Of a DNA stretch of 43,503 nucleotides, positions 5,913 to 21,509 are shown piece by piece (the first letter of the stretch is position 1; the number at the start of each line of letters is the position of its first letter). This stretch comes from Puniceibacterium antarcticum (lineage in GTDB: Bacteria > Pseudomonadota > Alphaproteobacteria > Rhodobacterales > Rhodobacteraceae). Below the pieces are notes generated by a model. That model worked only from the letters and a program-made list of their open reading frames with translations, had not been told where the DNA came from and searched no databases. The DNA is taken from the NCBI RefSeq assembly GCF_002760615.1, contig NZ_AWWI01000179.1, forward strand, positions 1 through 43,503, read 5' to 3'. A program made the translations under genes and the position numbers.

Positions 5913-6377
5913 TCAGGTCAGCCGGATCGGCCGCTGTTCGGCGATTGCTTCCATTCCGAAATACGAGGTGACCGTCTCAAGCTCGATATCTTCGATCAGC
6001 CGTTTGTAGACATCGTCATAGCTGTTCATGTCCCTTGTCACGATCTTGAGCAGATAATCGTAGTCGCCGCCAATGCGGAAAAAATCGATCACTTCCGGGA
6101 GAGTCGAAACATGCTGGCGAAACTGCTTTAGCCAGCTAGCCGAGTGATGGCGCGTCTTGATCATCACAAAAACCACCAGCCCAAAGCCGAGTTGCTTGCG
6201 ATCCAGAACCACGGTGCGGTTGCGCAGGATGCCCGCTGCTTCCAGTGCCTTCAGGCGCCGCCAGCAGGCATTCTGTGACAGGCCGACCCTGTCACTGAGG
6301 GCGCGCTGCGATTGCGCAGAGTCGCGCTGAAGCTCTTCTAGAATTCGTAAATCTATATGATCTAATTTTTCATTCAT
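5913..6377 (-). CDS. Lrp/AsnC-family transcriptional regulator
   Basis: A 154-residue protein of normal family length. The N-terminal helix-turn-helix (about residues 5-60) includes LDHIDLRILEELQRDSAQSQ and GLSQNACWRRLKALEAAGIL. The C-terminal RAM/AsnC effector-binding domain (about 68-145) includes LPEVIDFFRIGGDYDYLLKI. Lrp/AsnC proteins usually bind amino acids or related metabolites and control transport and catabolic operons. The gene diverges from the large operon beginning at 6486, with a perfect palindrome in the shared 108-bp gap, so it is the likely local regulator of that operon. The ligand is probably an amino acid-like substrate or intermediate of the cluster. Confidence 0.93.
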   Translation of the reverse strand: MNEKLDHIDLRILEELQRDSAQSQRALSDRVGLSQNACWRRLKALEAAGILRNRTVVLDRKQLGFGLVVFVMIKTRHHSASWLKQFRQHVSTLPEVIDFFRIGGDYDYLLKIVTRDMNSYDDVYKRLIEDIELETVTSYFGMEAIAEQRPIRLT

Positions 6378-6381
6378 TTTG

Positions 6382-6395
6382 CGATCATATGATCG
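6382..6395. promoter_or_regulatory. Palindromic operator candidate for the Lrp-type regulator
   Basis: CGATCATATGATCG is a perfect 14-bp palindrome four bases upstream of the regulator's start codon and inside the divergent control region. The position fits autoregulation plus control of the operon on the other strand. Binding is inferred. Confidence 0.5.
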
Positions 6396-6485
6396 AATAT
6401 TAATTCTATCAAGGCAAAATCAGGTGAACATTATCCAGTTTCACGTGTCAATCTTGCATCAATTGCCAAAAGTGACGGAGCTGGG

Positions 6486-7946
6486 ATGTCCCCCCTCAAC
6501 GAATTCAAGAAAACCCTTGCTGCGCCTGACCTTCTGGATCGTATCCGAAACGGTCTGATCGGCGATGATATGGAGATCGAAGGCCCATTCGGCGCCCAGA
6601 CCCTCGTCTATGCCGATTACGTTGCCTCGGGGCGCGCCTTGGTGCAGGTCGAGGATTTCATCCGTCAAAAGGTGCTGCCTTTTTACGCCAACAGCCACAC
6701 GCAGGCCTCCTTTTGTGGCGCCTATACAACGCGTCTGCGCGAGGCGGCACGGGCGGAGGTGGCGCGGATTACCGGTGCGGGGCAAGGAACCAGCGTGGTC
6801 TTTACCGGATCCGGATCGACCGCTGGAATCAACCGCATCGTCGGGTTGCTGGATATTGCCGCAATGGCTGCTCGGGGCGGGCGCGCTGTCGTGCTGGTCG
6901 GCCCCTATGAACATCACTCGAACCTTCTGCCGTGGCGGGAAAGCGGGGCGCGGGTCGTCGAGATCCCGGAAGCTGGGCAAGGCGGGCCCGATTTGGTCGC
7001 GTTGGAGGAGGCGCTGAGGGCGGCGCAAGGCGCAGATCTGATAGTTGGTTCGTTTTCGGCAGCTTCGAACGTGACGGGGATCACGACAGATGTGGATGCG
7101 GTGACGCGCCTGCTCAAGCAGAACGGCGCGCTGGCAATCTGGGATTATGGGTGCGGTGCGCCCTATATGACCATGAGAATGGGCGGAGGCACTGATGCGG
7201 CCAAAGATGCGATCGTGTTCTCACCACACAAGTTTCCCGGTGGGCCCGGTGCCTCTGGCGTTATGATCCTGCGGGACGCCATTGCCTGCCGCACGACACC
7301 GACTCTGCCCGGCGGGGGCACTGTCAGTTTCGTATCGCCTTGGGGGCATAGCTATTCGTCAAAGCTAAGTGATCGCGAAGAGGGCGGCACGCCGAATGTG
7401 GTTGGTGACATTCGCGTCGCACTTGCTCTGCTTGTGAAAGAGGCGCTGGGGCAGGACTTTCTGAGCCAGCGGCAGGCCATGCTGCGCGCCCGTGCGCTGG
7501 CGGTCTGGTCGCAGAACCCACGGATCGAACTGCTGGGCAACACCGACGCAGAGTCCCTGCCGATCTTTTCCTTCCGGGTGCGCGACGGTGCAGGTGGCCA
7601 TGTCCACCATCAGTTCTTTACCCGTCTGCTCAGCGATGTGCATGGCGTGCAGGCGCGGGGCGGCTGTGCATGCGCCGGTTCTTATGCGCACAGATTGCTG
7701 GGGCTGGACGCGACGCGATCGGCGCAGATGCAAAATGCGATCGCCTGCGGCGAAGAGCTGGAAAAACCGGGTTGGGTCCGGCTCAATCTGTCGGCGCTTA
7801 TGAGTGACGAGAAGGCAGATGTCGTCATTTGTGCTGTGGACAATCTCGCCCGCGCGGCTGAAAAGTATCAAAGCCACTATCGGGCCGATCCTGCGACCGC
7901 CCGGTTCATCCCTGAAAGCACCCCCGCAGAAAGTCTTGCCTCTTGA
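6486..7946 (+). CDS. Class-V aminotransferase-fold PLP enzyme (cysteine desulfurase-like)
   Basis: A 486-residue fold-type I PLP enzyme. Family landmarks are the SHTQASFCGAYTTRLREAAR region, the cofactor-binding FTGSGSTAGINR, GPYEHHSNLLPWRES, the Asp of WDYGCGAPYM, and the Schiff-base lysine in FSPHKFPGGPGASG (Lys249). A later RGGCACAGSYAHRLLG loop resembles the SufS/cysteine desulfurase and selenocysteine lyase branch. The class includes desulfurases, lyases, epimerases and aminotransferases, so the reaction cannot be fixed from sequence. A GGAG ribosome binding site precedes the ATG. It is first in an operon with an MFS carrier, a flavoprotein, CMD-fold proteins, an opine dehydrogenase-like protein and an ABC importer. 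This argues for a role in processing that transported nitrogen compound rather than in iron-sulfur assembly, since no suf/isc genes are adjacent. Confidence 0.88.
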   Translation: MSPLNEFKKTLAAPDLLDRIRNGLIGDDMEIEGPFGAQTLVYADYVASGRALVQVEDFIRQKVLPFYANSHTQASFCGAYTTRLREAARAEVARITGAGQGTSVVFTGSGSTAGINRIVGLLDIAAMAARGGRAVVLVGPYEHHSNLLPWRESGARVVEIPEAGQGGPDLVALEEALRAAQGADLIVGSFSAASNVTGITTDVDAVTRLLKQNGALAIWDYGCGAPYMTMRMGGGTDAAKDAIVFSPHKFPGGPGASGVMILRDAIACRTTPTLPGGGTVSFVSPWGHSYSSKLSDREEGGTPNVVGDIRVALALLVKEALGQDFLSQRQAMLRARALAVWSQNPRIELLGNTDAESLPIFSFRVRDGAGGHVHHQFFTRLLSDVHGVQARGGCACAGSYAHRLLGLDATRSAQMQNAIACGEELEKPGWVRLNLSALMSDEKADVVICAVDNLARAAEKYQSHYRADPATARFIPESTPAESLAS

Positions 7947-9274
7947 ACAGTCCGCTGTCAGACCCCACCTTTCGCCGCTTGTTCGCGGCACAGATCTGTT
8001 CGCTGGTCGGGGTAGGATTGCTGACTGTCGCCCTGTCTTTGATGGCCTACCGAATTGGCGGTGCGGCTGCCGGCGGTCAGGTTCTGGGACTGTTGCTGGC
8101 GCTCAAGATGGTGGCATACGTGCTGCTAGCGCCACTGGCCGAGACGCTGCTGTCACGGGTTTCGCGCAAACGGGCCATGGTGGGGCTGGATTTCGGGCGC
8201 ATGATGCTGCTTCTGCCCATGGGGCTTGTCACCTCAACCTGGCAGTTGGCGGTACTGGCCTTTGCCTTTTTTGTACTGGCCGCCGGGTTCACGCCGTTGT
8301 TCCAATCCGTGATTCCGGATGTGCTCCCAGAGGAAGAAAGCTATACCCGGGCGCTGGCCTGGTCTCGTATCGCTTATACGCTCGAATCCGTTCTGAGCCC
8401 GGTGATCGCGGCAACATTGCTGAACGTGGTGCCGGGTGAGACGCTGTTTTATGCATCGGCGTTGGCCTTTCTGGGGTCGGTCGTTGCGCTGCTTTCCACG
8501 CGGTTTCCGTCCCGTGGTGAGGCCGAAGGCAAAGGACCATTTCTGAAGCGCGCGTTGCGGGGGCTTTGGATCTATGGGCGCACGCCACGGCTGCGCGGTC
8601 TGTTTCTGCTGAATTTCTCTCTGTCGCTGGCCATGGCCTGGGTTCTGGTGAACTCGGTGGTCTATGCTGGTGCACGTCTGGGAGATGCCGAATATTTCTA
8701 TCCGAGGTTGATGGTCTGCTATGGGCTGGGCGCGGCGCTGGGTGCGATCTGTGCGGCACGGTTTTTGCGCAAGGTGAACGAACGCAGTGTCATGCTTTTG
8801 GGCGCCTTTGGATTTGCGGCCATCGGTGTCGGCTTCTCGGTCCTGCCATCGCTGCCCTTTGCCGGGCTTGCGCCGGTGTGGGTTGCTTTCGGCGCTGCAT
8901 CGTCGCTGGTGCTGACGCCGGGCGGTTTGATCATCACGCGCTCTGCGACACGGGGCAACCGTGCTGCGGTCTTTGCGGCCCAATTTTCGCTGAGCCATGC
9001 GGGTTGGCTGATTGCCTATCCGCTTGCGGGCTGGCTTGCGGCGCAGCTTTCTCTGGAGTGGGCGTTGCTCATTCTGTCACTCACATGTGCCGTTGTTGCT
9101 GCGGCTGCGATGGTCGTCTGGCCAGCGCATGACCCGCTGGAGCGCACGCACAGCCATCCCGAACTTGCCGAGGATCACCCGCATCTGAACGCCGTTCCGG
9201 CCCAAGGGTCGCTGCATTCGCATCTGCATGACTTCAGAATAGACGAGCTGCATCCAGTCTGGGCCAAAGGCTAG
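7943..9274 (+). CDS. MFS transporter with His-rich C-terminal tail
   Basis: A 443-residue major facilitator superfamily protein with about 12 predicted membrane spans (for example AALGAICAARFLRKVNE in the second half). It begins at a TTG overlapping the preceding stop (TTGA), because the first in-frame ATG would remove the first helix. The last 45 residues are hydrophilic and rich in His and acidic residues: THSHPELAEDHPHLN, then LHSHLHDFRIDELHP. Such a tail could bind a metal ion, or be a sensor or tether. Direction of transport is unknown. Co-occurrence with a binding-protein-dependent importer in the same operon makes export of a product or by-product plausible. Confidence 0.88.
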   Translation: MNSPLSDPTFRRLFAAQICSLVGVGLLTVALSLMAYRIGGAAAGGQVLGLLLALKMVAYVLLAPLAETLLSRVSRKRAMVGLDFGRMMLLLPMGLVTSTWQLAVLAFAFFVLAAGFTPLFQSVIPDVLPEEESYTRALAWSRIAYTLESVLSPVIAATLLNVVPGETLFYASALAFLGSVVALLSTRFPSRGEAEGKGPFLKRALRGLWIYGRTPRLRGLFLLNFSLSLAMAWVLVNSVVYAGARLGDAEYFYPRLMVCYGLGAALGAICAARFLRKVNERSVMLLGAFGFAAIGVGFSVLPSLPFAGLAPVWVAFGAASSLVLTPGGLIITRSATRGNRAAVFAAQFSLSHAGWLIAYPLAGWLAAQLSLEWALLILSLTCAVVAAAAMVVWPAHDPLERTHSHPELAEDHPHLNAVPAQGSLHSHLHDFRIDELHPVWAKG

Positions 9275-9318
9275 GACCGGTGCTGAACCAAATCTCCAAT
9301 TTTCCGTAGGATGACCGT

Positions 9319-10791
9319 ATGAAAACGATGGATCCCTCTCCCATAGACGGCCGAGGTCTGCCTGAGCTTGAGGCGCGCCTCAGGGAAGAGCTTGAGTTTC
9401 TGTGCTATCCCGGCAAGGGTTGGGTCCCCCAGCGCGAAGGTGTGAGTGACGTTGTCATCATCGGTGGCGGAATGTGCGGTATGGTCGCTTGGCTTGCCCT
9501 GAACACGGCGGGTATTCGCAATGTGCGCGTTCTGGACCGCTCTGCCGAAGGGCGTGAAGGGCCATGGCTGAACTATGCCCGGATGGAAACCCTGCGCTCG
9601 CCCAAGGTGTTGACGGGGCCGGCGCTCGGGCATGGGATGCTGACCTTTCAGGCCTGGTATCGCGCGCAGTTCGGAACAGAGGCCTGGGACGCGCTGGACA
9701 AGATCCCGCGCCCGATGTGGATGGAGTACCTGGCTTGGTACCGCAAATCGCTGGATGTCCCGGTCGAAAACGGCATCTCGGTCGATCATGTGGAGCCCGA
9801 CGGCGATCTGCTGCGACTGACGGTGTCGGGGTCCGAAACGGGTACGATCCTGACCCGCAAGCTGGTCTTTGCCACCGGGCGAGACGGCACCGGGGGGCCG
9901 AACATTCCGGCCTTTATCAAGGATCTGCCCCGTCATCTGTGGGCGCATAGCGCTGATGACATCGATTTTGACAGCCTCAATGGCAAACGGGTGGCCGTCA
10001 TCGGCGTCGGCGCGTCTGCTGTGGACAATGCCGCCGAAGCGCTGGAACATGGTGCCGCCGAAGTGCGCCATCTGATCCGGCGCAAGGACATGCCGCGGAT
10101 CAACAAGATGATGGGCATCGGCAGCTTTGGCTTTACGGCCGGCTATGCCAGTTTGCCGGACGAATGGCGCTGGCGCTTCATGCGCTACAGCTTTGCGACC
10201 CAAACACCGCCCCCACATGGATCTACAAAGCGCGTCAGCCGTCATCCCAACGCCTATTTTCACTTTGGCAAGGCGACGACACGCATTGAACCGCAGGGGA
10301 AGGGTGCGGTTGTCCACTTTGCCGATGGCACCTCGTATGAGGCGGATTTCGTGATCCTTGGCACCGGGTTCGTCATTGATCCGATGGCGCGGGTCGAATT
10401 TGGTGAGACGGCGGGCGAGATCTTGTTGTGGCAGGATGTCTACGAGGCGCCCGAGGATGAAAAATCCGTCGATCTGGGGAAATTCCCCTATCTGAACCCT
10501 GACTTTACCTTTCGCGAGAAAGAGGCCGGCACGGCGCCGTGGCTGAACCGCGTCTATTGCTTCAACTACGGCGCGGCGGCGAGTCTGGGAAAGGTCAGCG
10601 GCGACATCCCCGGAATCAGCGAAGGCGCGGCATGGTTGTCACGTTCGCTTGCCGCGCAGCTTTTTGGCGAGGATGTGCAGGCGCATTGGCAGGCAATGCT
10701 CGATTATGACACACCAGAGCTGATCGGTGATGAATGGGAGCCCTCAGATCTTGAGGGCAGCGCGCAATCTGTGAAAGGTCGGGTCGCATGA
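9319..10791 (+). CDS. FAD/NAD(P)-dependent oxidoreductase, FMO-like
   Basis: A 490-residue flavoprotein with two dinucleotide-binding folds. The FAD Rossmann motif VVIIGGGMCGMVAWLAL is near residue 45, and the NAD(P) motif RVAVIGVGASAVDNAAEAL is near residue 225. LPRHLWAHSADD precedes the second fold in the place of the flavin monooxygenase fingerprint, in altered form. LGTGFVIDPMARVEF fits the ATG-like motif of the FMO / N-hydroxylase superfamily. This suggests oxygenation or oxidation of an amine or sulfur atom with NADPH. The start ATG follows AGGA by eight bases. The gene lies 44 bases after the MFS gene and overlaps the next gene by ATGA. Its partners suggest it acts on the nitrogenous substrate imported by the operon's ABC system. 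A thioredoxin-reductase-like role is less likely because no CxxC pair is seen. Confidence 0.87.
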   Translation: MKTMDPSPIDGRGLPELEARLREELEFLCYPGKGWVPQREGVSDVVIIGGGMCGMVAWLALNTAGIRNVRVLDRSAEGREGPWLNYARMETLRSPKVLTGPALGHGMLTFQAWYRAQFGTEAWDALDKIPRPMWMEYLAWYRKSLDVPVENGISVDHVEPDGDLLRLTVSGSETGTILTRKLVFATGRDGTGGPNIPAFIKDLPRHLWAHSADDIDFDSLNGKRVAVIGVGASAVDNAAEALEHGAAEVRHLIRRKDMPRINKMMGIGSFGFTAGYASLPDEWRWRFMRYSFATQTPPPHGSTKRVSRHPNAYFHFGKATTRIEPQGKGAVVHFADGTSYEADFVILGTGFVIDPMARVEFGETAGEILLWQDVYEAPEDEKSVDLGKFPYLNPDFTFREKEAGTAPWLNRVYCFNYGAAASLGKVSGDIPGISEGAAWLSRSLAAQLFGEDVQAHWQAMLDYDTPELIGDEWEPSDLEGSAQSVKGRVA

Positions 10792-11261
10792 ATATTTTTG
10801 AAACCACAGCTGTGAAAATGTCCGGCGTGACACAAGACGGCGAAATCGGCAGCGCCGTTGCAACCCGGGCGAATATCATCGAGCTGACCCAAGCGGCAGA
10901 AGATGCGGTGCTGCGTCCGCGGGATTTCGGGGCGTTCGACCATGTCTTGCGCGCGGCGCTTGCGGCCCGCGTGGCACTGCTGGCCGGTGATGAGGCATTG
11001 GAAAGCTACTATCTGACGGGTGCCGGAGATCGTGCCGTTCTGGATCAGACCGGCGCGGATCAGTGGCTTGAGGTCATTCTTTCCTTTGTTGACAAGGTCG
11101 CCAACGAGACCCGCGATGTTGCCGCCGAGGATATCCTCGCGCTTCAAGGTGCCGGGATTTCGGATGCTGATATTGTCCGGCTGTGCGAACTGGTTGCCTT
11201 TCTGGCTTATCAGATCCGCGTGATTGCCGGGCTTCGCCTGATGAAAGGAGCAGCCGCATGA
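10788..11261 (+). CDS. CMD-domain protein (no CxxC)
   Basis: A 157-residue all-helical protein resembling the carboxymuconolactone decarboxylase / AhpD-like fold, of the kind annotated as an Avi_7170-type CMD protein. It shows FDHVLRAALAARVALLAG and a C-terminal VRLCELVAFLAYQIRVIAGL. The catalytic CxxC/His set of AhpD is absent. The overlaps on both sides are ATGA, so it is translated in lockstep with the flavoprotein and the second CMD protein, and the two CMD proteins probably form a complex. Its function is unknown. Confidence 0.72.
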   Translation: MNIFETTAVKMSGVTQDGEIGSAVATRANIIELTQAAEDAVLRPRDFGAFDHVLRAALAARVALLAGDEALESYYLTGAGDRAVLDQTGADQWLEVILSFVDKVANETRDVAAEDILALQGAGISDADIVRLCELVAFLAYQIRVIAGLRLMKGAAA

Positions 11262-11845
11262 GCCGTATTGTCCACAAATTTACCCGTACCGTGCCGCACT
11301 GGCAGCCGCGTGTCACACCCGTCAAGCTGGACGAGGCAACACCTGAGCAGCTTGACGCTCTGAAGATCACGCCGTCGAACACCAAGGTTTCCGACTATGT
11401 GCTGACGCTGGCGCACGATGTCGAAAGTCTGACCGTTCGGTCACCACTGTTCAACGCGATCATGTATGATGCCGGTGGGATGTCCCGGTCGGAAAGAGAG
11501 CTGGGCGCACTGGGCGCGTCGATGGTCAATCGTTGCATTTATTGCGCTGCCGTCCACGCCGACCGGCATGCCAAGCTAGAAAAAGACACCGGAGTCACCG
11601 ATGAACTTTTCGCCAAAGGTGAAAATGCCGATCTCTCGGTGCGAAATCGCGCAATCTTTGATTTTGCCCGCAAGGCTGCAGAAGCACCGCCTGCGGCGGG
11701 GCAGGCGGAGATGGACGCGCTGCGTGACGCTGGACTTTCCGATGAGGAAATTCTCGATCTGATCCTGTCCTCGGCGTTGTTCGGCTGGGCCAACCGGCTG
11801 ATGCATGTGCTTGGCGATCCGGTGCGTCAGGAGGCAACGGCATGA
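11258..11845 (+). CDS. AhpD-like CMD-domain protein with CxxC
   Basis: A 195-residue protein starting at 11258, where AAAGGAG gives a good ribosome binding site. The earlier in-frame ATG at 11183 lies inside the preceding gene. The AhpD signature is complete: NRCIYCAAVHADRHAKL with Cys93, Cys96 and His100. Members of this fold act as alkylhydroperoxidases, disulfide reductases or decarboxylases. The length is about twice a minimal CMD domain, with a second helical region DEEILDLILSSALFGWANRL. It may detoxify peroxide made by the neighbouring flavin oxygenase or serve as a redox partner. Both roles are inferred from context. Confidence 0.82.
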   Translation: MSRIVHKFTRTVPHWQPRVTPVKLDEATPEQLDALKITPSNTKVSDYVLTLAHDVESLTVRSPLFNAIMYDAGGMSRSERELGALGASMVNRCIYCAAVHADRHAKLEKDTGVTDELFAKGENADLSVRNRAIFDFARKAAEAPPAAGQAEMDALRDAGLSDEEILDLILSSALFGWANRLMHVLGDPVRQEATA

Positions 11846-12948
11846 GCGAAGCAATCCGTATCGGAATCGCAGGGGCCGGTGGCATCGCTTTTGGGTCTGC
11901 AGCACTGCTCCACCAGCACGGCCATGATCCGATGCTTTGGTCTCCCTCTGGGGCCGGGACAGAGGCGCTTAAAGCCGCGCCGCTCAAAGCTCAGGGTGTA
12001 ATCGAGGCAGAGTTCAGCCCGCGCGTTGCGGCCAGTGCAAAGCAGCTGGTTGAGGAAAACGACGTACTGATGATCGCGCTGCCTGCCTATGGGCACAAGG
12101 CAGTTATGGATGCGCTTGCGCCCCATATCCGCGAGGGGCAGCAGGTCATCATTTCATCCCACGCCTCGCTTGGTGCAGTGTATCTGATGCAGGCGCTGGC
12201 GGCGCGGAATGTCCATGTGCCGATCACGGCCTGGGGCACCACGGTTGTGACCGGTCGGCGGCAGGACGGGCCCGTTGTGCAGGTCAACACAGTTCGCACG
12301 CTTGTGGACCTCTGTACCGTGCCTGAAACCCGTGCAGATTGCGCCATGGCCGTGTGTCAGCGGCTGTTCGGGGACCGGTTCCGGTCGCGTGACGGGCTGC
12401 TCGCCATATCCCTTTCGAACCTGAACCCGCAGAACCATCTGGGCATCGCCTTGTGCAATATCACCCGCATGGAACAGGGCGAGGTCTGGAGCCAAGGGCG
12501 CAACGTAACACCCAAGGTGGGCAGACTGCTTGAACAGCTCGACCTTGAACGGCTCGCCATCGCCGAAACGCTCGGGTTGAGTGTGAGGACCATCTTCGAG
12601 CATTTTCATCTGAGCTTTCACGTGCCTATCGCGTCGATCTCGGAGATGAACCAGCAGATGCATGCACAAGGCAATGGCGGCACAGGACCCGCAACTGCGG
12701 ACAGCCGATATGTGACCGAGGACGTGCCCTATGGCTTGCAACTGACCGCTGTTCTGGGGCGATTGGCAGGCAAGCCTGCGACCCTGCACGAGGCCGGCAT
12801 TGCCCTTTTTTCGGCAATGTATGGTGTTGATTTTGCTTCTGAAAATACCTTGCTGAATGCGCTGAAGCTGGATTGCTTCAGCCTTGATGATCTGCGGCAA
12901 GCCGCCCGTACCGGTATGCTGCAGACCACGCCCGATATGGTGTCGTGA
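11842..12948 (+). CDS. NAD/NADP octopine/nopaline dehydrogenase family protein
   Basis: 368 residues. The N-terminal Rossmann fold has IGIAGAGGIAFGSAALLHQH, and NDVLMIALPAYGHKAVMDAL is typical of this NAD(P)-binding superfamily. The C-terminal helical octopine/nopaline dehydrogenase domain (about residues 185-340) includes NLNPQNHLGIALCNITRMEQ, whose Asn/His region corresponds to the substrate site. Family members reductively condense an amino acid with a keto acid, or oxidatively split such opines. It overlaps the upstream gene by ATGA and lies 48 bases before a PotD-type binding protein. With an importer present, cleavage of an imported opine-like secondary amine is more natural than synthesis. 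No nicotianamine-synthase-like partner (as in metallophore clusters) is visible. Confidence 0.88.
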   Translation: MSEAIRIGIAGAGGIAFGSAALLHQHGHDPMLWSPSGAGTEALKAAPLKAQGVIEAEFSPRVAASAKQLVEENDVLMIALPAYGHKAVMDALAPHIREGQQVIISSHASLGAVYLMQALAARNVHVPITAWGTTVVTGRRQDGPVVQVNTVRTLVDLCTVPETRADCAMAVCQRLFGDRFRSRDGLLAISLSNLNPQNHLGIALCNITRMEQGEVWSQGRNVTPKVGRLLEQLDLERLAIAETLGLSVRTIFEHFHLSFHVPIASISEMNQQMHAQGNGGTGPATADSRYVTEDVPYGLQLTAVLGRLAGKPATLHEAGIALFSAMYGVDFASENTLLNALKLDCFSLDDLRQAARTGMLQTTPDMVS

Positions 12949-12996
12949 ACGATAAAAGATACGGAAAAAAACGAAGCCAACATGGAGAAGTCACCA

Positions 12997-14103
12997 ATGA
13001 CGAAACTCATCTTTAATCGCCGTCGTTTTCTGGGCACAGCCGCGATGACCGGTGCTGCCCTTGCCAGCCCCGCCTACCTGCGCCGCGCGAACGCCGCGGG
13101 TGGCGAGGTCAACATCTGGACCTACAACGACTTCGTTCCCGAAGCTTTCAAAGAGCAATTCGAGGCTGATACAGGCATCAAGGTCAACATTCGTCTTGTG
13201 GATGATCAGGGCAAGCAGTTTAACCTGCTGGCGGCAGAGGCCCCCAATCCGTCGGTCGATATCATGACCGTCGCCGGTCACCGGTTTTTGCAGTTCATCG
13301 AAAGCGACCTGCTTGCGCCGCTCGACACGGACCGTCTGAGCAACTGGGGCAAGATCAACCCGACCTTTTCGGAAAGCGACTGGTCAACCATTAATGACAA
13401 TAAGTGGGGCATGCCGATCCTTTCGGGGATGGAGGTGCTGTCGTACAATACTGAATTGGTGAGCGCTGAAGAGGCCCAGAGCTGGGACACGCTTTTTTCC
13501 GAGCAATACAAGGGCCAGACCGCCTATGTGATTCAGGACATGATTTCGATCATCATGCTGAAGATGGGTTATGATGGCAACATGGTCGCCTATCTGGATG
13601 ATCCCGAAAAAGCTGCAGCCATCGTCGAGGAGGCTAAGCAGTTCCTGATCGAGAAGAAGCCGCTCGTGCGAAAATACTACGACGGCGGCGCCGAGCTTCA
13701 GCAGATGTTCGTCAACCAAGACATTGCCATGGCTCAAAGCTGGAATGGTCCGGCGGCAGCGCTGATCACGGACGGCTTTCCATTGGCGATGACGATCCCC
13801 AAAGAAGGTTCTTATGGCTTTGTCTACACCTTCAACATCGCCAATAACGCGCCCAATGCAGACAACGCCTATACTTTCATGGATGCCATCCTTGCCTCGC
13901 CGGAAATCGGTGCTGCGATGACAAAGGCATCGGGCTTTATCTCGACCTACAAGGACGCGTCCAACTACCTGAACGATGTCGATAAGAAGGCGACTTCGTT
14001 CTCTGATGAAGAACTGGCCAACCTGCAGTTCTTCCGCGCTGAGGCGAACGAGATGAAATACGGTCTCGTCGATCCCGCCGTCGAAGCGATCAAGGCCGCC
14101 TGA
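12997..14103 (+). CDS. ABC transporter substrate-binding protein, PotD/family 1 type
   Basis: 368 residues counted from the ATG at 12997, which follows GGAGAAG. An ATG at 12982 lies before that site and is less likely. The N-terminus carries a twin-arginine-like signal NRRRFLGTAAMTGAALASPA, so it is probably exported folded. The mature part opens with EVNIWTYNDFVPEAFKEQFE, typical of extracellular solute-binding proteins for polyamines, iron or aminophosphonates (PotD/AfuA/PhnS types). The ligand cannot be told. It is followed by a GC hairpin and then two permease genes and an ATPase, making a complete importer. Operon context suggests a nitrogen-rich ligand, for example an opine or modified polyamine. 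Confidence 0.9.
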   Translation: MTKLIFNRRRFLGTAAMTGAALASPAYLRRANAAGGEVNIWTYNDFVPEAFKEQFEADTGIKVNIRLVDDQGKQFNLLAAEAPNPSVDIMTVAGHRFLQFIESDLLAPLDTDRLSNWGKINPTFSESDWSTINDNKWGMPILSGMEVLSYNTELVSAEEAQSWDTLFSEQYKGQTAYVIQDMISIIMLKMGYDGNMVAYLDDPEKAAAIVEEAKQFLIEKKPLVRKYYDGGAELQQMFVNQDIAMAQSWNGPAAALITDGFPLAMTIPKEGSYGFVYTFNIANNAPNADNAYTFMDAILASPEIGAAMTKASGFISTYKDASNYLNDVDKKATSFSDEELANLQFFRAEANEMKYGLVDPAVEAIKAA

Positions 14104-14126
14104 GCGCTGCAATGAACCGGGCCTGT

Positions 14127-14144
14127 CCCGCCCTTTTCGGCGGG
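14127..14144 (+). terminator. Intercistronic hairpin after the binding-protein gene
   Basis: CCCGCC-CTTTTC-GGCGGG forms a six-pair GC stem between the binding-protein stop and the first permease. There is no U-tract. Such hairpins usually protect the 3' end of the binding-protein transcript or partly terminate it, giving more binding protein than permease. Confidence 0.5.
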
Positions 14145-14179
14145 CGGGCTTCCCGATCTTCCTCGAGAGGACTCCCTAC

Positions 14180-15166
14180 ATGAGTAATGACGCAGCAGCA
14201 CGCGCGCACAGCGGTGCCGTCGCGCCGGGCACCGGCGAGCGCACGTTCTGGGGTCGGCTGACAAGCTGGCCGCTTTATCAGATTCTGATGGCTTTCCTGA
14301 CGGCTTCGCCACGGCGCCAGTTCTTGATCCTGGCGGCCTTCCCGTTGATCTGGGTGCTGACGCAGCATCTTGGCCCGATGCTGCAGATGTTGCGGGTCAG
14401 CCTGACCGATGCGTATCCAGTTGCACCCGGTGTCGAGCAGCATTTCACGCTCGACAACTATATGCGCTTCTTTGGTGATCCGATCTTTTGGCAACCGTTT
14501 TTCAGGACGCTGACCTTTGCCGGCGTGTTCACATTCTGCACGCTTATCCTGACCTATCCGGTGGCCTACTTTCTGGCCCGTCACGTCAGCCGCAAGAATC
14601 AGATGCTGTATCTGCTGCTGCTGCTCATCCCCTTCTGGGTTGGTGAAATCGTGCGCACCTATGCCATCATGATCCTGCTCGGCAATACCGGTGCGGTGAA
14701 CATGATGCTGAAGTGGCTCGGCCTGATCGAAAAGCCCATTCCATTCATGTACACCAGCTTTTCAATGGGCGTCGGTATTGTCTATCTGACCGCGCTTTAC
14801 ATGCTGCTGCCTTTGTATTCCGCGCTGGAAAAGCTTTCCAAGAGCTTCAATGAAGCCGCAGCTGATCTTGGGGCAGGGGCCTGGACCCGGTTCCGGCGGG
14901 TGACGCTGCCGCTGACGATTGAGGGGATTTCCTCGGGTTGCACGCTGGTCTTTCTGATCTCGACGGGCTTCTATGCAACACCAGTTCTGCTGGGCGGGCC
15001 CTCTACAACGGTCTTTGCCGAAACCATTGCCGGGTTCTTTCACGTGGCCGGTGATCAATGGCCCACGGGCGCGGCGTTTGCGACGATCATGTTCCTGACG
15101 GCGTTGATCCTGACCAGCGTGTTCCAGAAACTGATGAATGCCCTGCGCAAGGGAGACAGCAAATGA
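14180..15166 (+). CDS. ABC transporter permease, PotB type
   Basis: A 328-residue membrane protein with about six spans after a roughly 50-residue hydrophilic N-terminus. The EAA-type cytoplasmic loop for ATPase docking is NEAAADLGAGAWTRFRRVTL. GAGAGGACT upstream serves as ribosome binding site. It overlaps the next permease gene by ATGA. This is the first transmembrane subunit of the importer. Relatives are PotB and other binding-protein-dependent inner-membrane components. Confidence 0.92.
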   Translation: MSNDAAARAHSGAVAPGTGERTFWGRLTSWPLYQILMAFLTASPRRQFLILAAFPLIWVLTQHLGPMLQMLRVSLTDAYPVAPGVEQHFTLDNYMRFFGDPIFWQPFFRTLTFAGVFTFCTLILTYPVAYFLARHVSRKNQMLYLLLLLIPFWVGEIVRTYAIMILLGNTGAVNMMLKWLGLIEKPIPFMYTSFSMGVGIVYLTALYMLLPLYSALEKLSKSFNEAAADLGAGAWTRFRRVTLPLTIEGISSGCTLVFLISTGFYATPVLLGGPSTTVFAETIAGFFHVAGDQWPTGAAFATIMFLTALILTSVFQKLMNALRKGDSK

Positions 15167-15954
15167 ACCGTCGCAACCGCATTGTGCTGTCCTGTGTCTA
15201 CTGGGCCTTCGTCCTTTACGTCTTTGTCCCGCTGATCCTGATGATCCTCATGGGATTCAAGGATAGCAAATTCATCGGCTTTCCGATCCGGTCCTGGACG
15301 CTGGACTGGTATACCGGCGTCTTCGAGGATGCTGAGGTCCTTGCTACCCTAGGCTATTCCACTGCAATTGCGGTCCTTTCGACGATTGTCGCCGTGGCCG
15401 TCGGCACCTGGATCGCGGTGCTTCTGGAGGGACGCAAGTTCATTGGCCGGACGGCGATCTTTGGGCTGACCGTCCTTCCCGCACTGGTGCCGGGCATCAT
15501 CTCGGCGATTGCCTTCCGCATCTATGCCCGCTGGCTGGGGATCGAACCGGGCATGGGGGCGATCATCTGGGCCCACGCGGTTCACAACGTCCCGTTCGTG
15601 GCCCTGGTAGTCATGGCACGGCTTTCAACCCTGCCGAAAAGTCAGATCGAGGCAGCCCGCGATCTGGGTGCGGATCCGATCGTCGCCTTTCTGCGGATCA
15701 CTCTGCCGTATCTGATGCCTGCAATTCTCGGCTCCAGCATCTTCTGCCTTCTGCTCAGCTTTGACGATTTTGTCCGCTCCTTCTTTCTGGGCGGCTACGA
15801 TCCGACCTTGCCGGTGCTGATCTTCGCCAAGCTGAAATCGGGCATGTCGCCCGAGATCAACGCAATTGCCACCATAGCGCTTGTTGTCACTGCCGCCATC
15901 GGCATCTGGGCCGAGCGTTTCACCCGCCGCTTGAACAAGGATACTCAGGCATGA
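15163..15954 (+). CDS. ABC transporter permease, PotC type
   Basis: 263 residues from the ATG at 15163, which overlaps the previous stop as ATGA. The longer upstream frame is not a gene extension because it runs within the preceding permease. There are about six membrane spans and an EAA loop QIEAARDLGADPIVAFLRIT. It is the second permease subunit, partnering the PotB-type protein. It overlaps the ATPase gene by ATGA. Confidence 0.92.
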   Translation: MNRRNRIVLSCVYWAFVLYVFVPLILMILMGFKDSKFIGFPIRSWTLDWYTGVFEDAEVLATLGYSTAIAVLSTIVAVAVGTWIAVLLEGRKFIGRTAIFGLTVLPALVPGIISAIAFRIYARWLGIEPGMGAIIWAHAVHNVPFVALVVMARLSTLPKSQIEAARDLGADPIVAFLRITLPYLMPAILGSSIFCLLLSFDDFVRSFFLGGYDPTLPVLIFAKLKSGMSPEINAIATIALVVTAAIGIWAERFTRRLNKDTQA

Positions 15955-17036
15955 ATGACGATACCCCGCTTGTCCGTCTCAAAGGCGTTACCAAGAAATT
16001 CGGAGATATGACCGCGCTGGACAACCTTACGCTGGACATTGCGCGTGGCGAGTTTGTGACCTTCCTCGGCCCGTCGGGCTGCGGCAAATCCACCACGCTG
16101 CGCATTCTTGGCGGGTTTGAGCGCCCGACATCCGGCAGCGTGATCCTGAATGGCGAGGATGTCACGCTGCAGCCACCGGAAAAACGTCAGGTGAACATGG
16201 TGTTTCAGGATTACGCTCTGTTCCCACACATGACGGTGCGCCAGAATATCTCGTTCGGATTGGAGCTGAAGGGCATGGACAAAAAATCCATCCGCCAGCG
16301 TCAGGATGAGATCATGTCCTTCCTCGAACTCGACACTTACGGCGACCGCTATCCTGCCCAGTTGTCGGGCGGGCAACGCCAGCGGGTGGCGCTGGCGCGC
16401 GCGCTGGCGCCAGATCCCGCGCTGCTTTTGCTTGACGAGCCGTTGGGCGCACTGGATGCCAAGCTGCGCGGCCAAGTCCAGCAAGAGCTGAAGTCGATCC
16501 AGCGGCGCACCAACAAGACGTTCTTTTTCGTGACTCACGATCAGGAAGAGGCCCTGACCATGTCCGACCGCGTAGTCGTCATGAACAAGGGGCGGGTCGA
16601 GCAGGACGGCACCCCGGAAGAGCTGTACTTTCACCCCGCGAGCCGGTTTGTGGCCGAATTCATTGGCGAAACCAACCTTCTGTCCGGCAAGATGCGCGGC
16701 CTAGAGGGCGATGCCGTTGTCATGGATTGGTTCGGCCAGACCCTGCGTGGCCATGCACCGGGCGGTGCCCCGCGCACGGGTGACGACATCACCGCCTCGT
16801 TGCGGCTCGAAAAGCTCAGGTTTCACAAGGCGCGCCCCGATAGCTGTAATGCCGTCCAAGGGCGAGTCGTGGGCAAGACCTTCCTCGGAAGCCGCATGGC
16901 AGTAGATCTGATGATCGACGAAGCTGCAGGCGCGTCGCTGCGCGCCTTCGTTGATGCTGAAACCGGTCAGTCCTTTGGTGCTGATCCCGTCTGGGTCGGT
17001 TGGAGTAGTGATGCAATGGCTGTCTTGCGCGACTGA
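15951..17036 (+). CDS. ABC transporter ATP-binding protein, PotA type
   Basis: 361 residues. Walker A is GPSGCGKST (about residue 40), the Q-loop is MVFQDYALFPHMTV, the signature LSGGQRQRVALARALA, Walker B LLLLDEPLGALD, and the H-loop VTHDQEEAL. A C-terminal TOBE-like regulatory region (about 265-361) is as expected for PotA/FbpC/PhnT-type subunits. It energises the importer and is the last gene of the operon, with about 700 bases without a supported gene downstream. Confidence 0.95.
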   Translation: MNDDTPLVRLKGVTKKFGDMTALDNLTLDIARGEFVTFLGPSGCGKSTTLRILGGFERPTSGSVILNGEDVTLQPPEKRQVNMVFQDYALFPHMTVRQNISFGLELKGMDKKSIRQRQDEIMSFLELDTYGDRYPAQLSGGQRQRVALARALAPDPALLLLDEPLGALDAKLRGQVQQELKSIQRRTNKTFFFVTHDQEEALTMSDRVVVMNKGRVEQDGTPEELYFHPASRFVAEFIGETNLLSGKMRGLEGDAVVMDWFGQTLRGHAPGGAPRTGDDITASLRLEKLRFHKARPDSCNAVQGRVVGKTFLGSRMAVDLMIDEAAGASLRAFVDAETGQSFGADPVWVGWSSDAMAVLRD

Positions 17037-17751: not shown

Positions 17752-20466
17752 TTACGCCGCAGCAATTACGGTCAGCGGAGCGGGGATGTAGTTGAGGATT
17801 GGCGCAAGCCAGCGTTCGGCTTCCTGCATGTCCATATGTTTGCGGGCGGCATAGTCCGCGACTTGGTCTCGCTCGACCTTTGACACGCCAAAATAATAGC
17901 TGTCGGGATGCGCGATATACATGCCGGAGACAGAAGACCCGGGCCACATCGCCATGCTTTCAGTCAGCTCTACACCGGTTGCGGCTTCGGCGTCGAGAAG
18001 GCTGAACAGGGTTAGTTTTTCGGTGTGATCGGGCTGTGCTGGATATCCCGGGGCAGGTCGAATACCACGGTAAGGTTCTCCGACCAGTTCCGAAGGCGCA
18101 TAAGTTTCATCCGTGGCATAAGCCCAGAGTTCGCGTCTTACGCGCTGATGCAGCATCTCGGCCATTGCTTCGGCGTAACGGTCGGCCAGCGCCTTGACGA
18201 GGATCGAGGAATACGTGTCATTCGCTTGATCAAAGCGCTCTGCAATCGATGCTTCTTCTGGTCCCGCTGTCACGACAAAGCCTCCGACCCAGTCATCGGT
18301 GCCAAGTGGGGCCACAAAATCTGACATGGCAACGTTCGGTCGTCCCGGGCGCTTGGCATGTTGCTGGCGAAGGGTGTGCAGGGTCGCGAGACTTGCGCTG
18401 CGGCTGTTGTCCGTGAAAAGCCGAATATCGTCGCCCTCTGCATTCGCAGGCCAGAATCCAACCACCGCACGCGGACCAAACCATTTTTCCGCGATGATCT
18501 GTTTCAGCATGGCTTGAGCATCGGCAAACAGCGCGCGGGCTGCTTCACCTTGCTTTTCGTCCTCAAGGATCTTCGGATAGACGCCTTTCAGCTCCCAGGT
18601 TCTGAAAAACGGGGTCCAGTCGATATATTCGGCAATCTCCGCCAGATCCCAATCGTCGATGATGCGCGTCCCGGTGAAGGATGGCTTGGCGACGGTATAA
18701 TCAGTCCAGTCGATCTTGGTCGCATTGGCGCGGGCTTCGGCAAGTGGGACCCGTTTTTTTGCCCGCTCGGCCCGTTCGTGGCGTTCGATCACCTCAAGGT
18801 ATTCGGCTTTGATTCCTTGGACATATGCGGATTTTTTATCGGCGCTGAGGAGCTGACTAACAACACCCACGGCGCGGCTAGCGTCGAGCACATAGATCGC
18901 TTGCCCTTGACTGTAACATGGTGCGATCTTGACCGCAGTATGCACCTTTGACGTTGTCGCCCCGCCAATGAGCAGCGGAATGTTGAACCCCTCCCGCTCC
19001 ATCTCGGCGGCCAAATGGGCCATCTCGTCAAGGCTTGGCGTGATGAGGCCTGACAGTCCGATGACATCCACGTTTTCTTCGCGTGCAACCTGCAGGATCT
19101 TCTGTGGCGGAACCATCACGCCAAGGTCGATGATCTCGTAATTGTTGCAAGCAAGCACAACGCCGACAATGTTCTTGCCGATGTCATGTACATCACCCTT
19201 CACCGTAGCCATCAGCACTTTGCCCGCCGTCTCGCGCCCTTTACCGCCCGAAAGCCGCTTTTCTTCTTCCATATAGGGCAGCAGGATCGCGACCGCCTGT
19301 TTCATAACGCGCGCTGATTTTACCACCTGCGGTAGGAACATCTTGCCCGCACCGAACAGGTCGCCGACCACGTTCATCCCCGCCATGAGGGGGCCCTCGA
19401 TCACATGAAGCGGCCTGACGGCCACCAGCCGCGCCTCTTCGGTGTCGGCTTCGATGAATTCCGTTATGCCATTGACCAGAGCATGTTCCAGGCGTTTTTC
19501 CACACTCCAGTCGCGCCATGCCAGATCACGCACTCTTTCCTCACGCGCGCCGCCACGGAACCGCTCTGCAATTTCCAGCATCCGCTCGGTCGCGTCTGGA
19601 CGGCGGTTGAGGACGACATCTTCTGAGCGTTCTCGAAGTTCGGAATCGATCTGGTCATACACTGCTAGCTGTCCGGCGTTGACGATCCCCATGTCCATAC
19701 CTGCCTGAATGGCATGATACAGAAAGACGGCATGCATCGCTTCGCGCACTGTTTCATTCCCGCGGAATGAGAAGGACAGGTTCGACACCCCTCCGGAGAC
19801 ATGCGCATAGGGCAGGTTCTCCCGGATCCAGCGCGTGGCTTCGATGAAATCGACACCGTAATTGTTATGCTCTTCGATTCCGGTCGCGACGGCAAAAACG
19901 TTGGGATCAAAGATGATATCCTCGGGTGGAAATCCGACCTCATCCACCAGAATGCGATAGGCGCGGGCGCATATTTCGGTTTTGCGGGCGCATGTATCGG
20001 CCTGACCTGCCTCATCAAACGCCATGACGACCACCGCCGCCCCGTAGGCAAGACACAGACGGGCGTGATGCCGAAAGGCGTCCTCGCCCTCTTTCATGCT
20101 GATTGAATTGACGATGGATTTTCCCTGCACGCATTGCAGGCCCGCTTCGATCACTTCCCATTTGGAACTGTCGATCATCACGGGAACGCGTGCAATATCG
20201 GGCTCCGATGCGATAAGGTTCAAAAACTCGACCATCGCGGCCTTTGAATCGATCAAGCCCTCGTCCATGTTGATGTCGATGATTTGCGCGCCGTTTTCCA
20301 CTTGATCGCGCGCCACATCCAGAGCGGCAGCATAATCGCGGTTGGTGATCAGCTTACGAAATTTGGCCGAGCCAGTCACGTTGGTGCGTTCACCCACATT
20401 CACGAACGGAATGTCGGGTGTCAGTACGAAGGGTTCCAGTCCCGAAAGACGCAGATAACGGTTCAT
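17752..20466 (-). CDS. metH: Methionine synthase, pterin/B12/activation domains
   Basis: 904 residues covering everything in cobalamin-dependent methionine synthase except the homocysteine domain. In order: the pterin-binding domain (about 18-280, [19 protein letters not shown]), the B12 cap (about 330-420), the B12-binding domain with the cofactor-ligating His in [16 protein letters not shown], and the SAM-dependent activation domain (about 600-890, with [18 protein letters not shown]). It transfers a methyl group from methyltetrahydrofolate via cobalamin to homocysteine and is reactivated with S-adenosylmethionine. Its ATG overlaps the stop of the homocysteine-domain gene by four bases, so the two polypeptides should be made together and assemble. 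Confidence 0.95.
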
Positions 20467-21509
20467 GCTGCCACCTTGTCGCGGAACTGGCGCGGTGCAT
20501 ATGGTGCGACGGCAGCGGCAATTGCCGCAATATGGTCGGGTGTTGTCCCGCAGCAGCCGCCAACCACATTCACCAGACCTTCGGCGGCAAATTTGGCGAT
20601 CTGCCCGGCAGTGTCGTCCGGCCCCTCATCATACTGCCCAAAGGCATTGGGCAGACCGGCATTCGGATAGGCGCAGATTAGGGTATCGGCCACGGTCGCA
20701 AGTTCAGCTATATGCGGGCGCATCGCGGCAGCCCCCAGTGCGCAGTTCAGCCCAACGGTGAAGGGGCGTGCATGGCTGACGGAATGCCAGAAGGCTGTCG
20801 GCGTCTGCCCAGAAAGCGTGCGTCCGGAGGCATCGGTGATGGTGCCAGAGATCATCAGCGGCAATTGTGCGCCCCGATCATGGAATGCTTCGAAGCACGC
20901 GAAAATCGCTGCCTTGGCGTTCAGAGTGTCGAAAATCGTCTCGATCAGGATCAGATCGGCCCCCCCCTCGATCAGCCCGCGCACCTGCTGACCATAAGCG
21001 ATGCGCAGATCGTCGAAGGTGACAGCGCGATATCCCGGATCGTTTACATCCGGGCTCAGAGAGGCGGTGCGATTTGTGGGACCCACCGCACCGGCCACAA
21101 AGCGCCTTTTGCCGTCGATTGCAGTCGCCCGATCCATGGCACGCCGCGCGATCCGCGCACCCTCTGCGTTCAGATCGTGAACGGCATTTTCCATACCATA
21201 ATCGGCCTGTGCAATTGTGGTTGCGGAAAATGTATTGGTCTCAACGATGTCTGCTCCCGCCACCGCGAAGTTGAAGTGGATTTCTTCAACTGCCTCGGGC
21301 TGTGTGAGGATCAGAAGGTCGTTATTGCCTTTCTGAGGATGATCCGAGTGGTGACGACATTTTTGAGTGGCCCCATGGCCTGAATAATCCTCTTCCGCCA
21401 GCCCAAGGGCTTGTATCTGTGTGCCCATTGCGCCGTCCATAATGAGAATGCGCTCTTTGGCCAAGGCTGCAAGATGCTTTGAATGATCAAGGTTGGTGTG
21501 CTGTGTCAT
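20463..21509 (-). CDS. metH: Methionine synthase homocysteine-binding subunit
   Basis: A 348-residue homocysteine S-methyltransferase domain protein, equivalent to the N-terminal module of MetH. It has [14 protein letters not shown] near the start and the zinc-binding cysteines in [10 protein letters not shown] and [13 protein letters not shown]. It binds zinc and activates homocysteine as thiolate. Alone it lacks folate and B12 domains, and these are supplied by the overlapping downstream gene. The same domain also occurs in betaine-dependent enzymes, but the ATGA overlap with the rest of MetH settles its role. Upstream there is an inverted repeat but no recognisable cobalamin riboswitch. 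Confidence 0.93.

Follow-up and report, generated by a model that had tools for sequence, protein, structure and literature searches.

The operon and its genes

The first 43,503 nucleotides of contig NZ_AWWI01000179.1 of Puniceibacterium antarcticum (Rhodobacteraceae; assembly GCF_002760615.1), hereafter called the window, contain an operon of ten co-directional genes (6486-17036, based on open reading frames and family scans) beside a divergently oriented gene for an Lrp-type regulator. This operon is widely conserved and functionally undescribed; it is probably catabolic and of a general kind that is known, i.e., the salvage or degradation of sulfur amino acids, with an unusual set of enzymes. 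Six of its nine junctions are four-base overlaps (at 7943, 10788, 11258, 11842, 15163, and 15951), and at the remaining three the genes are separated by 44, 48, and 76 bases. The genes are as follows:

5913-6377, minus strand: Lrp/AsnC-family regulator of the DecR/CyuR kind, judged by its likeness to Escherichia coli DecR; divergent from the operon
6486-7946, plus strand: class-V pyridoxal 5'-phosphate (PLP) enzyme, probable catabolic cysteine desulfurase; Aminotran_5, SufS nearest
7943-9274, plus strand: major facilitator superfamily (MFS) proton-antiporter-like exporter; TTG start; TIGR00900 182 bits, under the cut-off
9319-10791, plus strand: FAD/NAD(P)H flavoprotein resembling flavin-dependent monooxygenases (FMO); Pyr_redox_3, Lys_Orn_oxgnase
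10788-11261, plus strand: CMD1, degenerate protein of the AhpD/carboxymuconolactone decarboxylase (CMD) fold; TIGR04029 (CMD_Avi_7170) 69 bits, cut-off 100.75; no Pfam match
11258-11845, plus strand: CMD2, AhpD-like peroxidase-related protein with CxxC...H; TIGR01926 192 bits, above the cut-off
11842-12948, plus strand: enzyme of the opine dehydrogenase family (ODH); Octopine_DH 118 bits
12997-14103, plus strand: solute-binding protein (SBP) of the PotD/PotF fold; SBP_bac_8 and structural model
14180-15166, plus strand: PotB-like permease; NCBIfam PotB 189 bits, under the cut-off
15163-15954, plus strand: PotC-like permease; BPD_transp_1 47 bits (Pfam)
15951-17036, plus strand: PotA/PhnT2-like ATPase of the ATP-binding cassette (ABC) type; PhnT2 376 bits, PotA 367 bits, both under the cut-off

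An original prediction for this DNA had described a cluster of nine genes with eight junctions. All protein families that it named were recovered by Pfam and NCBIfam scans at about the same positions and its six four-base overlaps are correct, but there are ten genes and nine junctions. The divergent Lrp gene that it reported is present, just outside the range that it covered.

Conservation and modular make-up

A scan of named genomes with the FMO protein, of which the best 80 matches were listed, yielded 77 loci. Genes were considered to be in order when they were neighbors among the genes recognized by tblastn, and PLSDB product names were used as written. Among these listed matches, the order FMO-CMD1-CMD2-ODH-SBP-PotB-PotC-PotA occurs in 63 of the 77 loci, while 40 of the 77 contain the PLP and MFS genes plus the same eight genes in order, 39 of these 40 together with the divergent Lrp gene; several of the loci outside the full-order count are truncated by contig ends. 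Such conservation of gene order, for which the original prediction had proposed a search in other alphaproteobacteria, is much greater than chance would produce. Most of the 77 loci belong to the Rhodobacteraceae and Roseobacteraceae, and others to Stappia/Roseibium, Jiella, Oricola, Nitratireductor, rhizobia, one Vreelandella, and a few otherwise labeled records. One record, Enemella evansiae TN21-6 (L052), bears an actinobacterial name but has a Rhodobacteraceae-type cluster (76% FMO identity) and is probably mislabeled.

The cluster is modular. In 92 of 104 FMO loci, a CMD2 gene is found no more than 3 kb from the FMO gene, and ODH and the PLP enzyme are add-ons to this FMO/CMD module. An ODH match of any kind was found in 20 of 149 genomes of the family (with at least 45% identity in 12), and relatives with an E-value of 1e-60 or better were found in 4 of 398 genomes of the phylum, both of the latter counts including the window's own genome. 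The type of importer varies between clusters: Pot-type, amino-acid ABC type (Pantoea, Rhizobium tumorigenes, Rhizobium N621, Thioclava, and Jiella, with a different amino-acid type in a Bordetella metagenome-assembled genome), or tripartite ATP-independent periplasmic (TRAP) type (Vreelandella and Palleronia). The exporter is either of the MFS type or, in several Rhizobiaceae and two Rhodobacteraceae loci (L080, L224), of the multidrug and toxic compound extrusion (MATE) type. FMO loci lacking the PLP gene often carry a LysR gene.

The PLP enzyme and the FMO/CMD module have been joined repeatedly. FMO linkage changes five times on the PLP tree, and the presence of either the PLP enzyme or a Cds1-like enzyme changes eight times on the FMO tree (gains and losses counted together). 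The arrangements also differ: the PLP gene is found upstream with the MFS gene, after potA in Celeribacter (L039), on the opposite strand together with a dioxygenase and a TauE gene in Rhizobium N621 (L104), and without ODH in Vreelandella (L082). In Palleronia (L107) no PLP gene is present nearby, and genes for a Cds1-like L-cysteine desulfhydrase (569 bits, cut-off 600) and RidA adjoin the CMD genes instead. This exchange of two unrelated enzymes of cysteine-consuming type suggests, from the single case of Palleronia, that the FMO/CMD module may yield cysteine. Genes for a membrane dipeptidase and an M81 peptidase follow the FMO gene in the same Palleronia cluster.

The PLP enzyme and its neighbors

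The PLP enzyme (Aminotran_5, 134 bits with Pfam) is nearest to SufS in both NCBIfam and PDB. However, its score against the curated SufS model is 114.4 bits with a cut-off of 475.1, and it should be regarded as a relative rather than as a filed SufS. Lys249, which would form the Schiff base, and two cysteines, Cys394 and Cys396, are retained in all 89 aligned relatives. Cys396 aligns with the loop cysteine of SufS, which we take to be the catalytic cysteine on the mobile loop, and Cys394 is a second invariant cysteine two residues upstream (CxC).

Several relatives have sulfur genes as neighbors. A protein of the metallo-beta-lactamase (MBL) fold is encoded directly after the PLP gene in six loci and in the cut locus L103 (Rhizobium, Aminobacter, Agrobacterium plasmids). 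Four of the MBL-fold proteins were compared with NCBIfam and score 538-562 bits against the dioxygenase portion of Blh, a persulfide dioxygenase; the cut-off of 625 was set for a model of 423 positions, of which these proteins cover the last two thirds. A TauE/SafE gene is next in the row in Rhizobium N621 (L104), R. tumorigenes, and Rhizobium WYJ-E13; the loci of this group with TauE are L103, L104, and L213. Outside the clade with the dioxygenase, in another family, a TauE-like frame (49% identity) directly follows the PLP gene at L185, where no Blh-like dioxygenase was recognized between the two. Two strong homologs of persulfide dioxygenase (55% and 50% identity) are encoded elsewhere in the window's genome. 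One PLP relative adjoins an EgtC-like gene (166 bits, cut-off 219) and genes with carboxyltransferase domains (5-oxoprolinase type).

ATC hydrolase acts on the route from aminothiazoline carboxylate (ATC) to cysteine. In Sagittula P11 a PLP relative shares an operon with such a hydrolase (128 bits), and this operon looks like a route for thiazoline or thiazolidine breakdown. It lies on a plasmid (L216) and consists of ABC transporter genes, the PLP relative, an L-pipecolate-oxidase-like flavoprotein, the ATC hydrolase, and an M20 amidohydrolase.

Taken together, this evidence, which is good but incomplete, makes the enzyme a probable cysteine-desulfurating one. The original prediction overlooked this sulfur theme, i.e., the SufS-like enzyme with its cysteine, the DecR-like regulator, and the sulfur enzymes at related loci (persulfide dioxygenase, TauE, Cds1-like desulfhydrase, and ATC hydrolase).

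The regulator

The Lrp protein of the window is 46% identical to E. coli DecR and scores 137 bits against it, compared with 82 bits against Lrp and 47 bits against AsnC. DecR is also preferred by 77 of the 78 relatives of this regulator, a number that carries less weight for a sulfur function in that these 78 were picked by their likeness to the window's Lrp. As a control, the 12 Lrp-family matches in the window's genome were compared in the same way; three clearly prefer DecR and all three are at sulfur-type loci, the other two being beside a complete sulfate ABC operon (L247, contig 75) and beside cysG (L248, contig 121). A further one prefers DecR weakly (85 vs. 68 bits; two overlapping loci). 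DecR, also described as CcdR and CyuR, is reported to be activated by cysteine and to switch on cysteine-degradation (desulfidase) genes (PMC9040844, PMC5423876, in the parts consulted).

An Lrp gene (at least 40% identity) is situated within 2.5 kb of the PLP gene in 75 of 85 PLP loci. Thirty of the 85 have no FMO gene within 10 kb, and in 23 of these 30, some of which are short, the Lrp gene is still there. Near FMO genes, no Lrp of at least 40% identity was found unless the PLP gene was present. Lrp and the PLP enzyme therefore form a separate module.

The FMO, the CMD pair, and the opine dehydrogenase-like enzyme

The structural model of the FMO (36 sequences; mean predicted local distance difference test, pLDDT, 80.6) has N-hydroxylases as its nearest folds among the best 50 matches listed, with only 14-20% identity, and the fold search narrowed the substrate only to a general class. 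In the profile search the nearest proteins are small FMOs and YpdA. A GGGxCG motif of the YpdA type contains Cys in 90 of 110 sequences, and this residue presumably has a role in YpdA. At L104, where the FMO belongs to a cluster with the CMD pair, Ala takes its place. Because the motif cysteine is thus replaced in clusters with the CMD pair, the idea that the FMO is a YpdA-like disulfide reductase was given less weight.

Of the CMD pair, CMD2 has Cys93, Cys96, and His100 in all 93 sequences, so that the CxxC-His site of the AhpD/CMD proteins is present, while CMD1 has a single Cys and no CxxC. The solved structure nearest to ODH is N-(1-D-carboxylethyl)-L-norvaline dehydrogenase (CENDH, 1bg6; E 1e-29), and the match with octopine dehydrogenase is marginal (E 0.013). 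His199 and Asp294, which we assume to be catalytic positions, are present in 80 of 80 relatives, and the motifs NPQNH and EDVPYGL are kept. Members of the family make or split N-(carboxyalkyl) amino acids, a putative function for ODH. Related ODH genes also occur in other settings: one of 55% identity adjoins a gamma-glutamyltranspeptidase gene (L222, 9150-12754), in a stretch in which no FMO was recognized, and another is beside a DAO-type oxidase (L223).

Importer, exporter, and substrate

The model of the SBP (22 sequences, pLDDT 86.4) is nearest in fold to VcPotD1/PotD, with the opine-binding MotA proteins among its more distant matches. PotD holds the amines of spermidine by Glu36, Glu171, and Asp257 (PMC4096761, as far as consulted). 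In the SBP, Phe275 and Tyr277 take the places of PotD Trp255 and Asp257, without exception in 74 relatives; the residue matching Glu36 varies, and Glu171 corresponds to a conserved Asp. On account of these residues a polyamine was rejected as the substrate of first choice, even though the fold is that of PotD and one acidic contact is kept. The amino-acid ABC and TRAP importers of the variant clusters also weigh against a polyamine. In the Pantoea variant the amino-acid SBP is nearest to YtmK, a cystine-type binding protein, and the permeases are nearest to cystine permeases, under the cut-off. The residues of the SBP, the kinship of the Pantoea SBP with YtmK, and the nearest matches and settings of ODH and the FMO would suit some cysteine derivative that is substituted at its nitrogen or sulfur. 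The MFS protein has a His-rich C-terminal tail that perhaps binds metal.

Relation to known systems

A locus on pSymB of Sinorhizobium meliloti (L099) contains homologous FMO, CMD1, CMD2, and importer genes with ODH nearby. LysR replaces Lrp in this locus, and no PLP or MFS gene was recognized within the 25 kb examined. The record is unannotated and, from its gene content, we take the locus to be SMb20278-SMb20285. In the parts consulted, expression data treat SMb20278-SMb20285 (LysR, Pot-type ABC transporter, flavoprotein, and CMD genes) as a nitrogen-affected, putative polyamine uptake cluster (PMC3596328), and SMb20284 is described as a protein that may transport polyamines (PMC3484140). 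In the portions of the literature consulted on this gene combination, the S. meliloti locus tags occurred only in these two papers and no functional study was found. As far as these searches reach, the cluster is thus undescribed in function, as originally predicted, but a relative had already appeared in print in a transcriptome study.

CyuR-CyuPA and CcdR-CcdA of E. coli and Pantoea likewise pair a DecR-like regulator with an enzyme of cysteine-degrading type; here, however, that enzyme is SufS-like and of class V, and the same operon also encodes an oxidative module and an ABC importer. With SufS and CsdA the PLP enzyme shares the fold, the Schiff-base Lys, and the loop Cys, but it is far under the curated cut-off, has the extra invariant Cys394, and is linked to Lrp in an operon without Suf genes. 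ODH has the Octopine_DH domain and both motifs in common with CENDH and octopine dehydrogenase but, unlike opine dehydrogenases, lies in an import operon. The importer shares its four-part ABC organization and the PotD/PotF fold with PotABCD and PotFGHI, whereas its SBP, PotB, and PotA are under the curated cut-offs and the PotD residues Asp257 and Trp255 are replaced throughout. The ytmI-type operon of Bacillus serves the salvage of cysteine conjugates and cystine with a luciferase-like monooxygenase. Its logic of an amino-acid ABC transporter plus a flavin monooxygenase is similar, and its YtmK is the closest match of the SBP from the Pantoea variant; however, the FMO of the window is not homologous to its monooxygenase, and the CMD pair and ODH are additional in the window.

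Downstream of the operon, on the minus strand, the B12-dependent methionine synthase is split into two genes with a four-base overlap (17752-21509), i.e., a homocysteine S-methyltransferase (20463-21509) and a part with the pterin, B12, and activation domains (17752-20466).

Interpretation of the operon

We consider it somewhat probable (roughly 0.55) that the operon takes up an amino-acid derivative containing sulfur, liberates cysteine or a similar thiol amino acid from it, and removes the sulfur. The gene content, its conservation, the conserved residues, the kinship of the regulator, and the repeated joining of enzymes of cysteine-consuming type with the FMO/CMD module are direct observations. 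From these we infer all reactions, the order of the steps, and a single substrate that would unite all parts. The ABC importer would bring in the compound, which the NAD(P)H-dependent FMO with CMD1 and CMD2 may open oxidatively. ODH would handle the secondary-amine or imine part, leading to the release of cysteine, from which the SufS-like PLP enzyme would take the sulfur as persulfide, leaving alanine. The DecR-like Lrp protein would sense cysteine and control the desulfuration step. The persulfide could be oxidized by the persulfide dioxygenase homologs encoded elsewhere in the genome, and the MFS protein might export a by-product or excess thiol.

A more specific and quite tentative version of this sulfur route involves a "sulfur opine". 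The imported compound would then be a cysteine derivative of the N-carboxyalkyl or thiazolidine type, perhaps made by marine invertebrates, algae, or plants; ODH working in the breakdown direction would open its C-N link together with the FMO and the CMD pair, and the cysteine set free would pass to catabolic desulfurases that form a new family under Lrp control.

A number of observations weigh against the sulfur route. Regarding the modules, 41 of the 81 scored FMO rows (remote FMO relatives included) have neither the PLP enzyme nor Cds1 nearby, so that the cluster can do without a step that removes cysteine; more distant relatives of the FMO, with 34-40% identity, are found among other genes. 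Among 398 genomes only four have both PLP and FMO, compared with 23 with each, and this genome-wide co-occurrence was discarded as evidence since it is too weak. Regarding regulation, the Lrp of the window ranks only second among the DecR matches of its genome (137 vs. 148 bits), and its relationship to DecR is one of kinship, not orthology. In Thioclava (L105) a remoter Lrp (34%) occurs near the FMO with no PLP gene nearby, and the S. meliloti relatives are tied to nitrogen control in expression data (PMC3596328). Regarding the enzymes, the fold of the FMO is closest to amine N-hydroxylases and not to S-oxygenases. The links between the PLP enzyme and the dioxygenase are confined to one clade of the PLP tree, the operon of the window itself has neither a persulfide dioxygenase nor TauE, and no sulfur gene was found among the scanned neighbors at the lone Lrp-PLP loci L183, L186, L188, L193, L195, and L196. 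Finally, Tdh, an enzyme of threonine breakdown, has its gene close to that of the PLP enzyme in 15 of 85 loci, a link that the sulfur route leaves unexplained. These loci are L040, L041, L043, L044, L046, L049, L050, L052, L054, L066, L080, L087, L092, L181, and L207, and Tdh was also found at L101. It is mostly accompanied by Kbl and often by an XRE-cupin gene; in Paracoccus marcusii, one of the 15, it adjoins the PLP gene without an FMO gene, and in Ensifer canadensis it is beside ODH.

Four other explanations have to be weighed. In a reading along the lines of the original prediction, a sulfur-free opine or modified polyamine is imported and oxidized, with the PLP enzyme acting as an aminotransferase and the MFS protein exporting a by-product. 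This is consistent with the conserved His/Asp motifs of ODH, the PotD/PotF fold and single retained acidic contact of the SBP, and the distant MotA matches, and its outline of a conserved import and oxidation operon, with an ODH bearing family motifs and an amino-acid-like substrate, is retained here. The modified polyamine, on the other hand, is not supported by the SBP, with its invariant Tyr at the Asp257 position and its variable Glu36 position. Neither the SufS-type Cys in 89 of 89 PLP relatives nor the DecR-like regulator nor the sulfur enzymes in sister modules agree with a sulfur-free substrate. Opine catabolic operons of the occ/noc type carry a pair of opine oxidase subunits, and no such pair was recognized among the operon proteins in the Pfam and NCBIfam scans. 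We therefore regard this explanation as unlikely.

Alternatively, the FMO could be an S-oxygenase that converts a cysteine thioether to the sulfoxide, which an EgtE-like C-S lyase, the PLP enzyme, would split, while the CMD pair reduces the sulfenic acid. The weak EgtE match of the PLP enzyme (34 bits), the EgtC-like gene beside one of its relatives, the conserved CxxC-His of CMD2, and the profile matches of the FMO to small FMOs such as 4a9w, presumably sulfide oxidizers, point in this direction. However, a lyase releasing a thiol or sulfenic acid leaves the adjacent persulfide dioxygenase unexplained, the invariant SufS-type Cys suits a desulfurase better, and FMO/CMD clusters without the PLP enzyme exist, which renders this scheme decidedly improbable.

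It is slightly harder still to accept that two unrelated operons have fused, with an Lrp-PLP desulfurase module next to an FMO/CMD/ODH/importer module and no shared metabolite. Both modules do occur alone elsewhere and their regulators differ (DecR-like Lrp vs. LysR). Nevertheless, the modules have been joined repeatedly and in different ways (upstream, after potA in L039, and on the opposite strand in L104), a Cds1-like protein is present in Palleronia, and the genes overlap by four bases.

A staphylopine-like opine metallophore, synthesized by ODH, exported by the MFS protein, and re-imported by the ABC system, would account for the presence of these three in one operon but is hardly credible: metallophore operons of the cnt type carry a nicotianamine-synthase-like gene, whereas neither such a gene nor a TonB receptor was recognized among the eleven proteins (Pfam and NCBIfam scans), and many relatives lack the MFS gene.

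Implications

The labels "polyamine transporter" and "opine dehydrogenase" can misguide the annotation of clusters of this type. Our results point to catabolic cysteine desulfurases that are linked to a regulator and form a family of their own, some of them accompanied by a persulfide dioxygenase or a TauE/SafE exporter. Because marine Rhodobacterales repeatedly carry the operon and rhizobia its core, the compound that it takes up is probably a sulfur metabolite of common occurrence that is absent from current inventories. If this metabolite were indeed an opine-like cysteine derivative, the core of the route would be common to marine Rhodobacteraceae and root-nodule bacteria.

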